From an uncultured bacterium (GTDB lineage: Bacteria > Bacillota_I > Bacilli_A > RFN20 > CAG-826): a stretch of DNA of 64,000 nt. Under the pieces are notes generated by a model that saw nothing but the letters and a program-made list of their open reading frames with translations, was not told where the DNA came from and ran no database searches. The translations under genes were made by a program, and so were the position numbers. Below, piece by piece: positions 25,122-60,337 of this stretch. The stretch's first letter is position 1. Each line of letters starts with the position of its first letter. Where the stretch lies: contig CASEKC010000002.1 of NCBI GenBank assembly GCA_949288485.1, positions 1 through 64,000 of the forward strand, written 5' to 3'.

Positions 25122-25147
25122 CCCATAATTTTCATTAAGAAGATTTA

Positions 25148-25308
25148 CATCGATAGCGCCTCTAGATAATCTAGGAGTCTAATAGATATTTTCTATTAGC
25201 CCAACCAAATTCAATACCTTGAATTTGTTTCGGCGATCTTGCCTTTCATTAACTTCATCGGATGTCTCCTCCATTAATTACTAATCTTAATCGCGCCTCT
25301 ATCAATCT
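25148..25308 (-). promoter_or_regulatory. Lysine riboswitch (L-box)
   Basis: Read on the minus strand, the about 160-nt leader contains conserved lysine-box segments in order: GATAGAGGCGCGA, AGTA, GGAGGAGA, GAAAGGC...GCCGAAA, GGTTGGGCTAATAG with CTATTAG, then AGAGGCGCTATC closing P1. The five-way junction elements are all present. Lysine binding would promote the downstream terminator and shut off the transporter. Confirmation needs a covariance-model scan. Confidence 0.93.
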
Positions 25309-25320
25309 TTACAAGTCAAT

Positions 25321-43754: not shown

Positions 43755-43860
43755 CCTCCTTATATATTGAGGATATATATACAATAAGGTTTTATATCTA
43801 TATTTTAACCTCGGTAACATAATTAAGGACGAATCCCGTTACTGTCTTTGGTATATTTAT
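43755..43860 (-). promoter_or_regulatory. L10 leader RNA (rplJL autoregulatory)
   Basis: On the minus strand the segment ACCAAAGACAGTAAC...GTTACCGAGGT reproduces the conserved core of the L10 leader found before rplJL, with stem AGTAAC/GTTAC(C). Further down, CCTTAT pairs with ATAAGG of the ribosome site region (43755-43785), which would hide the Shine-Dalgarno sequence. L10-L12 binding would therefore be expected to repress rplJ-rplL. Confidence 0.8.
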
Positions 43861-43878
43861 CCTTCAAAACAAATTTAA

Positions 43879-53511: not shown

Positions 53512-54483
53512 TTAAATTTTTTGTATATAAAATTTCAATTTTTTTAATATTTTCTTTTCTTCTTCTTTTAAAGGCGCATAAAAAGTTTTATTCGATAAAT
53601 ATGATAATTCACCTTTAACATTTTTAAACGTAATCGAATAAGCGTGTAAAAATTGTTTTTCGTATTTAAATTCTTTATTAAAAGATTTATTTAAAACGAA
53701 ATTTCCATATTTTTCATCGCCAACAATTGGAAAATGTATGTAAGCTAAATGAACACGAATTTGATGAGTCCTACCAGTTATTAAATTAACATTTATTAAA
53801 GAATATAAATCGTTTCCACATATTTTTTTAAAAGTTGTTAACGAATCTTTTCCTAAAGAAAAATCAACTTTAACTGTATTTGTTTTGCTATTTTTTAATA
53901 AAGGAGCATTAATTTTTCCTTCTTCAGGAATATTTCCGAAAACCAAAGCTAAATAATGTTTTTCAATTTCAGTTTTATTTTTAAATAAATCGCTTCCATT
54001 TTTAAAAGCCATTAAATTTTTAGCGAAAATAATTAAGCCGGATGTGTTGCGATCAAGACGATGAATCGGGGAAGGAATAAAATTATCGTTTCTTGGAGAA
54101 TATTCTCCTTTATCAATTAGATATGAAATAACTTCATTAGAAAGTGTATATTTTTTTTCATTAATATCGCCATGAATCAAAAGCCCACGATCTTTGTTAA
54201 CGATTAAAATATTTTCATCTTCGTAAATGATATCGAAACTATATTTTATATTTTCAAAACTATCGCTTAAAAAATCGCTAATTTTTTCATCATTAACATA
54301 GATTCTTAAAACATCATTCTCAGCTAAGATATAATTTTCTTTTACCCACTTACCATTAACTTTAATATCTTTTTTTCTAAAAGTTTTATATATAAAAGAT
54401 AATGGGGCATTTTTTAAATATTTTTTTACAAATTTATCAACTCTTTGATTTGCATCGTTATGTGTAATTTTAAATTCTTTCAT
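53512..54483 (-). CDS. RluD/RluC-family rRNA pseudouridine synthase
   Basis: This 323-residue protein has an N-terminal S4-like RNA-binding region (VDKFVKKYLKN, DIKVNGKWVKENYILAEND) and the RluA-family catalytic motif PIHRLDRNTSGLIIFAKN with the catalytic Asp. GRTHQIRVHLAYIHFPIVGD follows. The exact uridine target is unclear. The start is placed at 54483 (MKEFKITHND). The longer frame, to 54663, reads through the complement of tRNA-Ser and is spurious. Confidence 0.9.
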   Translation of the reverse strand: MKEFKITHNDANQRVDKFVKKYLKNAPLSFIYKTFRKKDIKVNGKWVKENYILAENDVLRIYVNDEKISDFLSDSFENIKYSFDIIYEDENILIVNKDRGLLIHGDINEKKYTLSNEVISYLIDKGEYSPRNDNFIPSPIHRLDRNTSGLIIFAKNLMAFKNGSDLFKNKTEIEKHYLALVFGNIPEEGKINAPLLKNSKTNTVKVDFSLGKDSLTTFKKICGNDLYSLINVNLITGRTHQIRVHLAYIHFPIVGDEKYGNFVLNKSFNKEFKYEKQFLHAYSITFKNVKGELSYLSNKTFYAPLKEEEKKILKKLKFYIQKI

Positions 54484-54489
54484 TTTTAT

Positions 54490-54518
54490 GTGACTTTCAA
54501 ATATTCTTTTGATACAAT
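54490..54518 (+). promoter_or_regulatory. tRNA-Ser promoter
   Basis: GTGACT (54490-54495), 17 nt, TACAAT (54513-54518), with the tRNA starting 38 nt downstream. Confidence 0.6.
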
Positions 54519-54555
54519 AATAAGGCTTTAAAAAAGCATATACAACTAAATTAAT

Positions 54556-54644
54556 GGAGAAATACCCAAGAGGCTGAAGGGGCGGGCTTGGAAAGCTCGT
54601 AGGCTGTAACAGGCGCGGGGGTTCAAATCCCCCTTTCTCCGCCA
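54556..54644 (+). tRNA. tRNA-Ser (GGA)
   Basis: An 89-nt type II tRNA: acceptor GGAGAAA/TTTCTCC, discriminator G, encoded CCA, anticodon loop TTGGAAA with anticodon GGA (reads UCC/UCU), a long variable arm (TAGGCTGTAACAGGC region) as expected for Ser, and T-arm GGGGGTTCAAATCCCCC. Confidence 0.97.
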
Positions 54645-54659
54645 CGATTAAATGTCGAG

Positions 54660-54687
54660 ACACGTCCGTAAAAATACGTGTTTTTTA
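54660..54687 (+). terminator. tRNA-Ser terminator
   Basis: Stem ACACGT/ACGTGT, 10-nt loop, then TTTTTATT. Confidence 0.75.
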
Positions 54688-54730
54688 TTACTTTTTTGAA
54701 GATTTTTAATATATTTAGCATTTTTAGGCC

Positions 54731-54815
54731 ACCTGGTTGAGAGTCATATAGGGTTTCTTTAAACCCCTTATGAAAACTGGACAGACACGAGGGTTAAACC
54801 CTCTTAACCAGTTTA
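54731..54815. repeat. Complex palindromic element: structured RNA or mobile-element remnant
   Basis: Three nested structures are visible. Outer: CTGGTT(G)AGAG (54733-54743) with CTCT(T)AACCAG (54801-54811). Hairpin: TCATA-TA-GGGTTT with AAACCC-CT-TATGA (54744-54773, CTTT loop). Hairpin: GAGGG/CCCTC (54789-54803). In addition AAACTGG (54774-54780) can pair with CCAGTTT (54808-54814), which competes with the outer stem for the same CCAG. It lies between tRNA-Ser and the glycan operon. It could be a leader RNA with alternative folds or the end of an insertion element or MITE. Confidence 0.55.
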
Positions 54816-54964
54816 AAAAAGAAAAGATGATGTTTTATACATCACCATTTCTGCTAATTTGTAGTGTTCTTTTTTATGTTTTCAGGATTAATTAATTCAT
54901 TATTAACTACATCATTAATTCAAAATGGTGTTTTTTATAAGAAAAAATTATACAATTATTAAGT
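54816..54964 (+). other. Leader region of the glycan operon
   Basis: No gene is seen. GATGATGT/ACATCACC (about 54826-54846) forms a small hairpin, and CACCATTT (54843-54850) is complementary to AAATGGTG (54923-54930), which is followed by TTTTTT, so a terminator-like fold is possible. The likely glf -10 (TATACAAT at 54949-54956) lies 8 nt before the ATG. Confidence 0.45.
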
Positions 54965-56086
54965 ATGGAAAAAGATTATAAATATGATTATTTAATCGTT
55001 GGAAGTGGACTTTATGGCTCTATAATGGCTCACGAACTTTTTAAACACGGTTATAAAGTTTTAATTATCGAAAAAAGAAACCATGTTGGCGGAAATATAT
55101 ATACTGAATATCGCGATAATATTGATATCCATATTTATGGAGCGCATATTTTTCATACTTCAAATGAAAAAATTTGGAAATATGTTAATTCTTTTGTTAA
55201 ATTCAATAATTTTATTAATTCTCCTTTAGCTTTTTATAAAGGAAATTACTATCACATGCCTTTTAATATGAATACTTTTCATGAAATTTGGGGAGTTAAC
55301 ACAAAAGAGGAAGCAATGGCTAAAATCGAAGAAGAAAAGAAAAAAGAGAATATAAAAGATATTAAAAACTTGGAGGATCAAGCAATATCTTTAGTTGGAA
55401 GAACAATCTATGAAAGACTAATTAAAGGATATACAGAAAAACAATGGGGGAAAAAATGTAATGAACTCCCATCCTTTATTATTAAAAGACTTCCACTTCG
55501 TTTTGAATATAATAACAACTACTTTAACGATATTTATCAAGGTATTCCTATTGGAGGATATACAAAATTAATAAACGAATTATTGAAAAATATCCCTATT
55601 AAATTAAACGAAGATTTCTTAAAAAACAAAGATTATTATAAAAAAATCGCTAAAAAAATTATTTATAGCGGGGCAATTGATGAATATTTCGATTATAAAA
55701 TAGGAAAATTAGAGTATCGTTCATTAAAATTTGATTTAGAAAAAATAAATAAAGAATTTTATCAAAAAAATTGTGTAATTAATTTTACCGATGTTACTCC
55801 AGCTTATACCAGAATTATTGAACATAAATATTTTGAAAACGACAAAAGCCCAGTAAGTTGGATAACAAAAGAATATCCTGTTAATTATGTTGAAGGAATG
55901 GAAAAATATTACCCATTAAACGATGAAAAAAATAATCGATTATATGAAAAATATTTAGAACTTGCTAAAAATGAAAGTAATGTTATTTTTTCTGGCAGAT
56001 TAGGAAGATATAAATATTATGATATGGATGATGTTATTGAACTTGCTTTTAATGATTTAGCAAAAGAAAATATAGATGTGGAATAA
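54965..56086 (+). CDS. glf: UDP-galactopyranose mutase
   Basis: This 373-residue flavoenzyme converts UDP-galactopyranose to UDP-galactofuranose for surface glycans. The N-terminal FAD motif is VGSGLYGSIMAHEL (12-25). Next come EKRNHVGGNIYTE and YGAHIFHTSNEKIW, and later DVTPAYTRIIEHKYF with the conserved Arg. A final SGRLGRYKYYDMDDVI segment completes the family pattern. It is the first gene of a three-gene operon with two glycosyltransferases. There is no Shine-Dalgarno site; the -10 box is 8 nt upstream. Confidence 0.96.
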   Translation: MEKDYKYDYLIVGSGLYGSIMAHELFKHGYKVLIIEKRNHVGGNIYTEYRDNIDIHIYGAHIFHTSNEKIWKYVNSFVKFNNFINSPLAFYKGNYYHMPFNMNTFHEIWGVNTKEEAMAKIEEEKKKENIKDIKNLEDQAISLVGRTIYERLIKGYTEKQWGKKCNELPSFIIKRLPLRFEYNNNYFNDIYQGIPIGGYTKLINELLKNIPIKLNEDFLKNKDYYKKIAKKIIYSGAIDEYFDYKIGKLEYRSLKFDLEKINKEFYQKNCVINFTDVTPAYTRIIEHKYFENDKSPVSWITKEYPVNYVEGMEKYYPLNDEKNNRLYEKYLELAKNESNVIFSGRLGRYKYYDMDDVIELAFNDLAKENIDVE

Positions 56087-56091
56087 AAAAT

Positions 56092-57015
56092 ATGAAATTA
56101 GTATACGGAATGATGCTCTCAAGTAAAAAAGAGCAGGCAATTAACTTAATTAATTTACTTAATGTCAACGATAATCAACTTGTTATTTTAGTTGATAAAA
56201 AAAGCGAGGAATTATTTCAAGAACTATATTCTCGCTTCAAAAACGACCAACATATTCATTTTATAATGGATCGATTTGATGTTGGTTGGGGCGATTTAAC
56301 TACTTCTATTGCTACAACCTCATTATTAAAGAATACACTTTCTTTAGATTATGATTATTTTACTATGGTTTCTGAATCCTGCTTACCTCTTTATCCAGAT
56401 TTAGAAATTAAGAAATTTTTAGAAGAAAATAAAGGAAAAGAATTTATCGATGTTCGTTTTGATTGGACGAAAAGAAGTCGTTTACATTTAATTCATGATA
56501 AAGCTTATACTCCAAAGCAAAGAAAACATCGTAATTTATTAGCGTGTAGAGATGTAATTTGTGATTTATTATTTTCTCCATTTATGAAAACAAATAAAGC
56601 ATTTAAATCTTTTAAAGTTCCTACAACTTTATTATGGTTTACTATTTCAAAAGATTGCGCAAAATACATTGTCGAAACAATTGAAAATAATAAATTATTT
56701 GATAAATACAAAAATACTTTAATTGCAGATGAACATATTTTTGCAGAAGTTTTATATCATTCACCATATTTTGACAAATTATTTATTAAAAAGAAAAGAG
56801 GTGGAGCACTTCTTTATTGCGATTGGTATGTATTAAATGCACCTAAATCTTTAACAATGAAAGATTATAAACGTATATATAATCATAAAATTCCTGTTTT
56901 ATATGGACGTAAATTTGATTTAAAAACAAATCCTGATGTAGTTAATCAAATTTATAAAAATAGAGAAAATCCAAACTTTAAATGTCCATATGTAAAAGCA
57001 AATAAAATTAAATAA
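56092..57015 (+). CDS. Core-2/I-branching-type (GT14) glycosyltransferase
   Basis: This 307-residue protein has the GT14 pattern: a DKK segment early, then FDVGWGDLTTSIATTSLLKN (usual VxWGxxSxVxAxLxLL), followed by DYFTMVSESCLPLYP. Bacterial members transfer sugars during exopolysaccharide or teichoic-type polymer synthesis; the donor is unknown. There is no membrane segment, so it acts in the cytoplasm. It starts 5 nt after glf without a ribosome site, implying coupling. Confidence 0.85.
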   Translation: MKLVYGMMLSSKKEQAINLINLLNVNDNQLVILVDKKSEELFQELYSRFKNDQHIHFIMDRFDVGWGDLTTSIATTSLLKNTLSLDYDYFTMVSESCLPLYPDLEIKKFLEENKGKEFIDVRFDWTKRSRLHLIHDKAYTPKQRKHRNLLACRDVICDLLFSPFMKTNKAFKSFKVPTTLLWFTISKDCAKYIVETIENNKLFDKYKNTLIADEHIFAEVLYHSPYFDKLFIKKKRGGALLYCDWYVLNAPKSLTMKDYKRIYNHKIPVLYGRKFDLKTNPDVVNQIYKNRENPNFKCPYVKANKIK

Positions 57016-57016
57016 T

Positions 57017-58168
57017 ATGAAATATTTATTTTTTTCAAGCGATAATAATAGCGGTAGCGGTGCTTTTAGAGCATTAGTTAGACTCGTTAAAGATATTAAA
57101 TCTTTCGATAACAATGAAGTTTTTGTTGTTCTTCCTTATGGAGGAAGCGGAAGAAAAATGCTTAAGGAAGCAAAAATAGAACATAAAATCTACTTTACTT
57201 TTTCGTGGATTAAACATGATTATTTTAATCCTATTGACTATCTTTTATATCCTTTTAATAAACTCAATAATTTTTTTAAAGAAAAAGAAATTACTAAATT
57301 CGTTAAAGAATATAATCCAGATTTGATTATTATTAATACTTCTTATCATTATTTAGGAGCAAAAATTGCAAAAAAATTAAATATTCCATACGTTTGGCAT
57401 ATTCGTGAATTTTTAAATGAAGACCAAAAAAAGACATACTATAATTTTAATTATGCTTTGAGTTTATATAATTCAGCAAAAAAAGTTATATGCGTTAGTC
57501 ATGGATTATATTTAAAATACGCTCAAAAAATAAATAAAAATATACTTACTTATGTTTATGATGGTGTAAATACCAAAAAATTCTATAACCCTAACAAAGA
57601 AATATTTGCTTCTTCTACAATTCATTTTTTAAATGTTGGAAGAATTAAACATGAAAAAGGCCAATTTTTAATGATTAAGGCTTTAAATGAATTAAAAGAT
57701 CGATTTAACTTCGATATTACTTTTGTTGGATATATTCATAAATCTTATAAAAGAAAACTATTGAAATTAGGAAAAAACATTAAAGAAAGAATTACATTTG
57801 TTGGTCAAGTAAATGATGTTAATAAATATTATGAAAAAAGTGATGTATTTATTATGCCTTCTTTAAGTGAGGCTTTTGGGCTTGTAACAGTCGAAGCAAT
57901 GTTAAACGGACTCGTTGTAATTGCTTCAAACAGTTTAGGAAGTAAAGAAATTGTTGAAAATGAAAATAATGGTTACTTATTTAAAGCAAATGACTATATT
58001 TCGTTAAAAAACAAAATAATCGAGTTAATAAATGACGAAGATATAGCTAAAAGAAAAGCTCTCAATGGACAATTAAGAGCCTTAAATAATTTTAACGTTT
58101 TACTTAATAGTGAAAATATTTATAAAATTTATAAAGAATGTCTTAAAAATAAAAGCCCACTTCATTAA
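57017..58168 (+). CDS. GT4-family glycosyltransferase
   Basis: This 383-residue GT-B fold enzyme has an N-terminal acceptor domain and a C-terminal donor domain with LNVGRIKHEKGQFLMIKAL, ITFVGQVNDVNKYYEKSDVF and the E-x7-E motif SEAFGLVTVEAMLNG near residues 285-299. It is the third gene of the glf operon, one nucleotide after the GT14 stop, and ends inside a bidirectional terminator. Predicted role: addition of a sugar to a surface polymer containing galactofuranose (inference). Confidence 0.9.
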   Translation: MKYLFFSSDNNSGSGAFRALVRLVKDIKSFDNNEVFVVLPYGGSGRKMLKEAKIEHKIYFTFSWIKHDYFNPIDYLLYPFNKLNNFFKEKEITKFVKEYNPDLIIINTSYHYLGAKIAKKLNIPYVWHIREFLNEDQKKTYYNFNYALSLYNSAKKVICVSHGLYLKYAQKINKNILTYVYDGVNTKKFYNPNKEIFASSTIHFLNVGRIKHEKGQFLMIKALNELKDRFNFDITFVGYIHKSYKRKLLKLGKNIKERITFVGQVNDVNKYYEKSDVFIMPSLSEAFGLVTVEAMLNGLVVIASNSLGSKEIVENENNGYLFKANDYISLKNKIIELINDEDIAKRKALNGQLRALNNFNVLLNSENIYKIYKECLKNKSPLH

Positions 58169-58186
58169 TGAAACGGGCTATTTTTT
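58151..58186. terminator. Bidirectional terminator after the glycan operon
   Basis: Stem AGCCC-AC-TTCAT with ATGAA-AC-GGGCT includes the GT4 stop codon. T-rich tails lie on both strands, so it also ends the convergent gene at 58185. Confidence 0.88.
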
Positions 58187-58586
58187 ATTCTTTTTTAGTT
58201 GAGTTATTAATTAAAGTTGAATAAGTTGTATTTTCTTTTGGTGTGTTTGAAAGAGCTTCTCTTCTTTGTTTTCTTCTTGCTTCTCTTTCTTTTTCTCTAT
58301 CTTCACTTTTAGAAGCGAATGAAAGAGAAAATGCTAAGATTATTGATCCAACAACAGTGACAATTACACCAAACCAAGTAAATCCAACCCCTCCCATCAT
58401 TGATTTCATTGAAGAATTTGGGGTGGTTAAAGGTGAATTATAAAGATTTGTATAATCATCAATTAAACCAAGGACTAACATTGTTAATCCAAATGTAATT
58501 AAAAGTAAAGCGATAATAAAAGCAATTAACTCTTTTACACTAAAAACTTTAAAAAACTTATTTTTTGTATTTAATTGTTTGCTCAT
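58185..58586 (-). CDS. Unknown membrane protein, two helices
   Basis: This 133-residue protein has two transmembrane segments (about residues 18-41 and 69-91), separated by a Ser/Asn/Thr-rich loop, and a strongly charged cytoplasmic tail (EDREKEREARRKQRRE). No family is recognised. Its ATG overlaps the stop of the upstream gene (TAATG), so the two unknown genes are coupled and probably work together at the membrane. Confidence 0.75.
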   Translation of the reverse strand: MSKQLNTKNKFFKVFSVKELIAFIIALLLITFGLTMLVLGLIDDYTNLYNSPLTTPNSSMKSMMGGVGFTWFGVIVTVVGSIILAFSLSFASKSEDREKEREARRKQRREALSNTPKENTTYSTLINNSTKKE

Positions 58587-59461
58587 TATTTATCTTCTTT
58601 CTTTTCTTCGCTAGCTTTAGCAGCTTCTGCTTTTGCTCTTGCCTCTTGATTATCTTTAATCATTTCTTGAACTGCAGGAGTATATGTTAATTTCCAGCTT
58701 TCTTCAGAAAGAATTAAGAATTCATTAACTTTTGCATTTGCTTCAGCAAATACATCATTGAAATTCTTGCCTCTTGGTAATTCTCTTTTACCATTCATCA
58801 TTTCGATTAAATGTTCAACTAAATCTAAAGCATCTGTATATTCAGCACTCTTACATGTTGCATTTGCTTTTGAAATATAGAACATTTTAACAAGTGTATT
58901 TAATTCTTGTTCAATAAAACTTGCAGCAGGTCCTTTTTCACCATGAGCTTCTCTCATTTCTTTATTAAATTCATTAAATTTTCTCATAATTGTATTTAAT
59001 AAAGAGAATAAAACTACTGCACGATAAAATTTTTCATCTGCATCTAACAATTTAGTGATAGGTTCTTCAACTTGGTTATGTTCTTGAGCATATCTTTCAT
59101 GAATTTTAATAATTGCATTAATTTGTTCATGAAGTGGAACTGTTTTTTCATAAATCATAACATCTTGGTTATGATCAACTCTGATTGTGTCGCCATCGAC
59201 TCTTAAAACTGTTGATTTATCAGAATAAAAAGTTTCACTGTAATCAAGAATTTGTTTTCTTAATTCTTCACCTTTTTCTTTGTTAGAATCTAAGAAACTC
59301 TTTAATGGAGTATTTAAAAGTGGTTCGTTAACAATACCGTTTTTCTTGTAATTATAAAAATTAACATCGAACTTATCTCTATGAATTGTGTATTCAAGAG
59401 TATCTCTGATTAATGAATTATAATAAACAAGTGAAACAATAACTCTATTAATAGGTAACAT
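58586..59461 (-). CDS. Unknown helical protein
   Basis: The 291-residue protein is mainly helical, with a highly charged Ala/Lys/Glu C-terminal tail (EARAKAEAAKASEEKKEDK) that looks like a coiled coil or disordered segment. No signal peptide or known motif is seen. GGAG lies 13 nt upstream of the ATG. It is translationally coupled to the two-helix membrane protein. The codon use looks like that of neighbours, so it appears to be a resident gene rather than a recent import. Confidence 0.75.
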   Translation of the reverse strand: MLPINRVIVSLVYYNSLIRDTLEYTIHRDKFDVNFYNYKKNGIVNEPLLNTPLKSFLDSNKEKGEELRKQILDYSETFYSDKSTVLRVDGDTIRVDHNQDVMIYEKTVPLHEQINAIIKIHERYAQEHNQVEEPITKLLDADEKFYRAVVLFSLLNTIMRKFNEFNKEMREAHGEKGPAASFIEQELNTLVKMFYISKANATCKSAEYTDALDLVEHLIEMMNGKRELPRGKNFNDVFAEANAKVNEFLILSEESWKLTYTPAVQEMIKDNQEARAKAEAAKASEEKKEDK

Positions 59462-59506
59462 AAATAATTATTTCTCCTTTTCTACATCTTATATATTTTA
59501 CTATTT

Positions 59507-60337
59507 TTAATAAATATATCTAGATAAATCTTCATATTTATCAAGACTATATTTTGCATACTTTTTTACAGATTTTGGTGCATGAGACATTGCAAAAGAA
59601 CGTTCATGAAATTCTTTAAACATTGAAATATCATTTCCGCTATCTCCAACGACATAAACATCATCTTTTAAGATATTATTAAGTTCGCAATAATTTTTGA
59701 TAGCTTCACCTTTATTTATATTTCGATAAGTAATTTCAATGCAAGCTCCACTCCAAGAAGATTCAACATTATCATAAGTATTACGAATAATTTTATTTGT
59801 TTCCATAGCTCTTTTTCTTGCACCTTTAGTAATTCCAAAGAAGATAAGTATTTTATAAACTCTTTCAGTTTCAATAACTTTTTCATACTTTTGATTATTA
59901 AAATTAATTTTTTCTGCAAGAACGCCTTGCCATTTAAAATATAATTTTGATAATCCCAAAATTATTTTTGAATCTTTTTTTGAATGTACATAAATTCCAC
60001 TATCGGTAAAAATTGCTACCGCTAGACATTTATAAGAAGATAAAACATCACTAATAATAGATTTCACTTCTTCTTTACTTATTTCTTTAGAAAAAATAAT
60101 TTTTTTATTTTGATAAATGCAAGCGCCATTAAAAGAGACAATATCAACATCTCTTCCAATCTTTTTTTCAACCTTTAAACCATAAGCAAGAGATCTACCA
60201 GAAACAATAATTACTTTTCCTCCATTATCAATAAATGATTGGATAAAAAATAAATTAGCAGGGCAAATCATATTTTTATGGTCTTTTGGATAAAATAAAG
60301 TACCATCTAAATCTGTAGCAATAACTTTTTTAATCAT
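59507..60337 (-). CDS. Cof-type HAD phosphatase (second copy)
   Basis: This 276-residue HAD hydrolase has motif I ATDLDGTLF, motif II IIVSGRSLAYG, a IIB cap, and motif III/IV KGEAIKNYCELN with VVGDSGNDISMFKEF. The substrate is unknown. It resembles the HAD at 50882 in architecture but not closely in sequence. It lies after the HPF gene, separated by a hairpin. No clear ribosome site is seen. Confidence 0.88.
   Translation of the reverse strand: MIKKVIATDLDGTLFYPKDHKNMICPANLFFIQSFIDNGGKVIIVSGRSLAYGLKVEKKIGRDVDIVSFNGACIYQNKKIIFSKEISKEEVKSIISDVLSSYKCLAVAIFTDSGIYVHSKKDSKIILGLSKLYFKWQGVLAEKINFNNQKYEKVIETERVYKILIFFGITKGARKRAMETNKIIRNTYDNVESSWSGACIEITYRNINKGEAIKNYCELNNILKDDVYVVGDSGNDISMFKEFHERSFAMSHAPKSVKKYAKYSLDKYEDLSRYIY

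Follow-up and report, generated by a model that had tools for sequence, protein, structure and literature searches.

A palindromic patch behind a tRNA-Ser gene in an uncultured bacterium is very probably the remnant of one end of a mobile element

The palindromic patch at positions 54731-54815 of the window, the 64,000-nucleotide stretch of DNA that was analysed here, very probably stems from a mobile element that inserted behind a tRNA-Ser gene, at its 3' end, and later decayed, and would represent the inner portion of the element's left end. Judging from their genome sequences, relatives in the same family contain units with varied cargo that are placed between a left (L) end and a right (R) end, beside tRNA-Ser, alone or in tandem. 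The window itself retains only a decayed trace of such a unit. The first-pass annotation had suggested an integration scar beside the tRNA as one of several readings, and this suggestion agrees with our results, in which the patch forms part of the left end of an element integrated at tRNA-Ser and precedes a remnant of the first gene of that element.

Inspection of the sequence confirmed the inverted repeats at 54731-54815 (Table 1). For a region of 121 nt, the z-score of the RNA fold was -2.49 on the plus strand, with 2 of 200 shuffled sequences folding equally well, and -2.17 on the minus strand (4 of 200). Equal stability was seen in two of the 3196 stretches of 85 nt in the 64-kb window, both located over the tRNA, and the fold is thus beyond chance by both comparisons. 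The patch is also GC-richer than its surroundings, as described earlier, with a G+C content of 0.41 at 54720-54799 versus 0.16-0.34 in the other listed stretches between 54640 and 55100. All arms of the fold that had been pictured, two hairpins enclosed by an outer stem, are present. However, the 3' arm of the outer stem and hairpin 2 both use positions 54801-54803, so the picture is not fully self-compatible, and the minimum-energy fold consists of hairpin 1 and the alternative stem closing hairpin 2, with the outer stem absent. The feature as a whole starts at 54645, directly after the CCA of the tRNA, rather than at 54731, and the patch makes up the inner half of this block, which is conserved in relatives.

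Table 1. Coordinates of the palindromic patch and of the parts of the proposed integration scar in the window
Feature	Position	Strand	Remarks
tRNA-Ser(GGA)	54556..54644	+	Proposed integration target; ARAGORN
Predicted crossover dinucleotide CA	54643-54644		CCA tail of the tRNA; position deduced
L end, class A, element side of attL	54645..54804	+	nhmmer profile of 30 copies, match 54638-54804; 131 bits, in part by construction because the window is among the 30 copies
Terminator-like hairpin and T-run, element-borne	54659..54686	+	Folding; kept in relatives
Outer stem arms	54733-54743 and 54801-54811		11 pairs, one G-T
Hairpin 1	54744-54773		Inside the outer stem of the first-pass annotation
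Alternative stem, AAACTGG and CCAGTTT	54774-54780 and 54808-54814		
Most conserved L-end core, CTGGACAGACACGAGGGTT	54777..54795	+	Core pattern across the family
Hairpin 2	54789-54803		Inside the outer stem of the first-pass annotation
Terminator-like hairpin of lost cargo gene	54826..54846	-	Terminator scan; aligns in G504 and G128
Last 15 codons and stop of antirepressor-like first gene, NELINPENIKKNTTN	54854..54901	-	Aligned against the 186-aa genes at L299 and L222

The window aligns from 54638 to about 54905 with the left end of the record G504 and with that of the second unit in G128. The window matches the left end of a 29.7-kb element that bears recombinase genes, and the match runs on into the first gene of that element. 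The 186-aa antirepressor-like genes at loci L299 and L222 show a weak match to Bro-N and also match phage antirepressors. The homology to G504 and G128 ends after the antirepressor remnant, and the glf-like operon starts there. No R end was found at positions 54000-60000 of the window. What is left is an L end and a 15-codon gene scrap without an R end, and we therefore consider it to be a scar, the history of which is deduced from relatives since its own R end is missing. The element-borne hairpin directly behind the tRNA is probably the new terminator of tRNA-Ser. A glf-like gene and two glycosyltransferase-like genes (54965-58168) lie between the scar and a gene at 58185-58586, and these glycan genes are oriented opposite to the usual cargo. 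In several congeners, the apparent counterpart of the gene at 58185-58586 is located directly behind tRNA-Ser (by eye), so the interval in the window looks like inserted DNA. The window's genus contains a further product of decay from an element of this kind (G024), where a class A L end runs straight into a truncated recombinase 1 gene (L168, 140-970).

The block is present in a single copy in its own genome, and the congener G022 is 94% identical to it up to position 54795 only. The core pattern occurs at 38 places, which belong to 31 of the 196 family genomes and to 13 of 35 genera, while the reversed pattern, which served as a control, gave no matches in the 196 genomes. Among the 38 places, which were inspected except for the second place in G208, no L end was present at those in G216, G208:C2, and G141. 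A DNA search with one L-end copy matched 55 of 224 family genomes from 14 of the 35 genera. The search for further copies, which had been proposed as a check on a mobile origin, thus yielded none in the genome itself but many across the family. Beyond the family, a sample of the phylum contained matches in 13 of 295 genomes, eight of them within the family; the five outside it aligned over 23-33 bases with E-values of 4e-4 to 9e-4 and are taken as chance. Matches to a 14-base pattern in the genome collection are mostly chance, as three of the at least 117 listed stretches held L ends (L091, L148, and L141). The hosts of L091 and L148 are rumen bins labelled Bacilli bacterium. The plasmid and phage collections gave no match, and the virus collection contained one record with the core.

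A MITE or an insertion-sequence remnant moved by transposition, which had also been suggested, would be in line with a short, palindromic sequence found in many copies across the family. However, this mechanism does not suit a sequence that is single-copy in its own genome, whose copies are placed at one kind of target, tRNA-Ser, or at R ends, with five odd ones excepted, and where whole genes are bounded by two unlike ends. We regard transposition of this kind as extremely improbable. The CTGGAC core was also considered as an insertion-sequence end, an idea that was dropped on seeing the anchoring to tRNA-Ser.

The L end is about 165 bp long and begins right behind the CCA of tRNA-Ser or behind an R end. 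In the 30-copy profile, the tRNA-Ser...CCA is followed by TCATCGATTGTCGAGACACGTACG, a hairpin and TTTTTT, then by a class-specific stretch and finally by AACCCC...CTGGACGGACACGAGGTTTAAAC. Most of the displayed core copies are preceded by a tRNA end of the form ...CTCCGCCA and a terminator-like hairpin. The middle stretch of the L end distinguishes class A, to which the window belongs, from class B. The R end contains two direct repeats, located about 37 bp apart, that end in GGAGACA, and its terminus is CGACAATTGGAGACA. It is followed by another L end (18 of 39 R ends) or by other DNA, which at several loci shows a terminator-like hairpin by eye.

We examined 65 non-redundant L ends, drawn from 55 stretches that were preselected by a pattern, L-end or recombinase match rather than from all 224 genomes. 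Of these, 35 directly follow tRNA-Ser, 18 lie behind an R end, and two adjoin a tRNA tail at the edge of a contig, while five are truncated at their start and five have other neighbours. By eye, two of the latter lie behind R-like sequence and two behind decayed tRNA-tail-like sequence, the fifth being L167. None of the 65 L ends lies at a non-Ser tRNA, and the isoacceptors are GGA in 30 cases, GCT in three, and TGA and CGA in one case each. The left border is fixed to the base by two comparisons of the same cargo at different positions in different genera (L170/L211 and L211/L212), in which identity begins at CA and the L end is preceded by the tRNA in one genome and by an R end in its counterpart. 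At the junctions, the tRNA end and the R end have nothing but the dinucleotide CA in common.

The units, counted from an L end to the next R end, range from 412 bp to 15.1 kb and occur singly or in tandem (n=21, taking the next detected R end for each L end and with overlapping loci of one genome possibly double-counted). Twelve of the 21 units, with lengths of 1.4-2.1 kb, contain one open reading frame of 90 aa or more. At locus L215, five L ends, two of them partial, are placed in a row beside one tRNA-Ser, and at L230 there are three. In 47 of 50 units, the first gene is oriented with its 3' end toward the L end, a count that omits the window and L-end matches ending before profile position 100 and that may include overlapping loci of one genome twice (L212/L319 and L226/L301). 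Many different genes are located downstream of the block in the relatives. The cargo includes ATPases with AAA_14 and DUF4143 domains, Fic, AbiEii, cupin, HTH+M78, and DUF4417 proteins, as well as JetC/JetD-like Wadjet genes. The AAA_14+DUF4143 ATPases are the most frequent single-gene cargo and occur at many loci.

The cargo proteins are 88-99.5% identical between genera (nine pairs) versus 48-61% for the RluA proteins encoded next to the tRNA (five pairs), with all pairs picked by eye from common N-termini. For only three of the cargo pairs does the RluA pair come from the same two genomes, and the identities for cargo versus RluA are then 99.5 versus 48%, 93.5 versus 51%, and 93.3 versus 55%. 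The genomes G084 and G229 are 99.6% identical over 5 kb, including the tRNA, which is possibly due to misbinning; as all genomes are draft bins, misbinning could imitate transfer. Four species of one genus, that of G219, have a common tRNA and distal flank (92-100% identity) with inserts of about 1.06, 1.72, 2.33, and 2.78 kb, and the R end before the flank scores 47, 40, 16, and 8 bits at these loci, two being clear and two weak. The distal flank was found in four of 24 genomes of the G219 genus, all occupied, and in one of 19 genomes of the G128 genus, G128 itself. Neither a fully empty site, in the flank searches in these two genera, nor a circular form, in a search of the virus collection for the R-L junction (0 records), was recovered. 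In G012, an IS66-like element, identified by eye, lies right behind tRNA-Ser and its terminator (L171, 4049-4700).

Large serine recombinases are encoded in the elements at L222 and in G504, but not in the window. A clade of such proteins, with Resolvase and Recombinase domains and 69-100% identity to the 590-aa protein at L222, is encoded at ten places in eight genomes, while other matches are at most 43% identical. According to the L-end similarity search, six of the eight genomes have an L end and two do not. An R end is located beside the recombinase operon in all seven places where the contig continues, at a distance of 15-38 nt from the last recombinase gene in six places and of 523 nt in one. 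In G504, an IMG/VR record (L299, L323, and L324), the sequence opens with tRNA-Ser(GGA), followed by a class A L end and then by the antirepressor-like gene. Further in, it encodes a 606-aa recombinase, DISARM-like DrmA and DrmB, methyltransferases, a VapE-like protein, and a terminase-small-subunit-like protein. The record terminates inside a recombinase pair and does not include an R end. No structural gene was identified among the G504 proteins scanned, and the element, which is called viral by IMG/VR, may be a phage satellite.

Only their position and the 2-bp junction link the recombinases to the units, and the catalytic step is inferred. In the mechanism proposed here, two or three large serine recombinases would join circular units to the tRNA end. 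The attP dyad is predicted to consist of CGACAATTGGAGACA followed by TCATCGATTGTCG, such that the circle would read CGACAATTGGAGACATCATCGATTGTCG. A crossover at the dinucleotide CA would leave the tRNA whole and supply it with a new terminator, and small units without recombinase genes would be mobilised in trans. Alternatively, the units might be moved in trans by a different enzyme, for instance a tyrosine recombinase or an RNA-guided transposase, with the serine recombinases being cargo and the L end a guide RNA or an accessory site. Consistent with this alternative, most of the units, and most of the small ones in particular, carry no recombinase gene, and the L end is a long, structured sequence that is conserved. 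However, tyrosine recombinases use an overlap of 6-8 bp, for which a junction of CA only is too short, while it suits a 2-bp serine-recombinase crossover. In addition, the recombinase pair adjoins the R ends, and no tyrosine integrase or transposase family was detected by Pfam among 40 proteins from the element regions. We therefore consider a different mover unlikely.

The mutually exclusive pairings had also been taken to suggest a regulatory RNA. A riboswitch-like cis-regulatory RNA upstream of the glf operon would explain both the unusually stable fold with overlapping stems and the position of the patch upstream of the glf-like gene. However, no Rfam family fits the patch, and no covariation was observed on either of the two proposed folds among nine class A sequences, a set with 90% mean identity and hence limited power. 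Hairpin 1 is near-invariant in the nine copies, which is uninformative either way, while at least three pairs of the outer stem are lost in five copies and four pairs of the alternative stem in three. The copies in the relatives furthermore adjoin various other genes, which point at the block. Taken together, a riboswitch-like function is very improbable.

As part of the end of a mobile element, the inner hairpins may insulate the tRNA from cargo genes that are read toward it, a role to which we assign roughly even chances. The minus strand of class B forms a terminator-like hairpin of ten pairs followed by a U-run (one copy folded), and at several loci this hairpin sits a few to tens of bases past the stop codon of the cargo gene, which makes insulation of convergent transcription our best guess. 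Class A is without a good U-run, which counts against the insulator role that the U-run in class B supports. Less probably, though still quite conceivably, the hairpins constitute an accessory recombination site, and they are unlikely to represent a small or guide RNA. The strictly conserved core CTGGACRGACACGAGG could also be a site where a protein binds during recombination.

No description of such units was found in the open-access literature, a coverage that excludes subscription papers and preprints. The system works like the ssrA islands of Dehalococcoides and the SCC/ECC elements, and its layout resembles that of an integron array. Integrons contain tandem small units, often of one gene, in one orientation and with a structured site in between. 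Similarly, the units here occur in tandem (L215 and L230) and the orientation of their first gene is uniform. Unlike in integrons, the anchor is a tRNA gene, the genes are read toward the platform, and each unit has two ends.

As described in PMC3146451, the Dehalococcoides ssrA islands (DsiB/DsiA) are arranged in tandem downstream of a tRNA-like gene, carry variable cargo, and are attributed to a large serine recombinase and a second serine recombinase, with the recombinase gene placed at an att end. The units here share all these features. However, the ssrA islands target the T-loop of the single-copy tmRNA with a 20-bp direct repeat, whereas the units here use the CCA terminus of several tRNA-Ser genes, with which they share about 2 bp, have distinct L and R ends, and often contain a single gene. 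The SCC/ECC elements (CcrAB), according to PMC6222049 and PMC10581047, are located in rlmH with direct repeats of about 50 bp around TATCATAA, and resemble the present system in their large serine recombinases, fixed chromosomal site, variable cargo, and leftover remnants. Here, the target is tRNA-Ser rather than rlmH, and the best scores of the recombinases with the Ccr models are 101-117 bits, far below the cut-offs of 700-900; by the features tested, the system is not an SCC. Islander-type tRNA/tmRNA islands are described as usually involving a tyrosine integrase, with the gene being split and then restored by a fragment copy (PMC4383910). They are similar in that a tRNA gene is the target and is kept whole, but differ in that the tRNA here is unsplit.

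We tentatively suggest, as an idea that may well prove wrong, that the system is integron-like but driven by serine recombinases. In this scheme, the CCA end of tRNA-Ser genes would serve this family of Bacilli as a shared docking platform, with the crossover at the CA of the tRNA's own tail. Standard-ended units of one or a few genes, read toward the tRNA, would be shuffled between genera by recombinases that larger, satellite-like defence elements provide in trans. If so, uncultured Bacilli of the gut and rumen would exchange single genes, such as those for defence and toxin-antitoxin functions, across genera at a predictable address, and the two kinds of end would provide a sequence handle for discovering unknown cargo. 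It would also turn the existence of cassette arrays without a tyrosine integrase into a testable question and add recombinases with a tRNA-encoded 2-bp core. Elsewhere in the window, two elements on the minus strand scored above the Rfam gathering score, a lysine riboswitch at 25146-25309 and a ribosomal protein L10 leader at 43773-43869.
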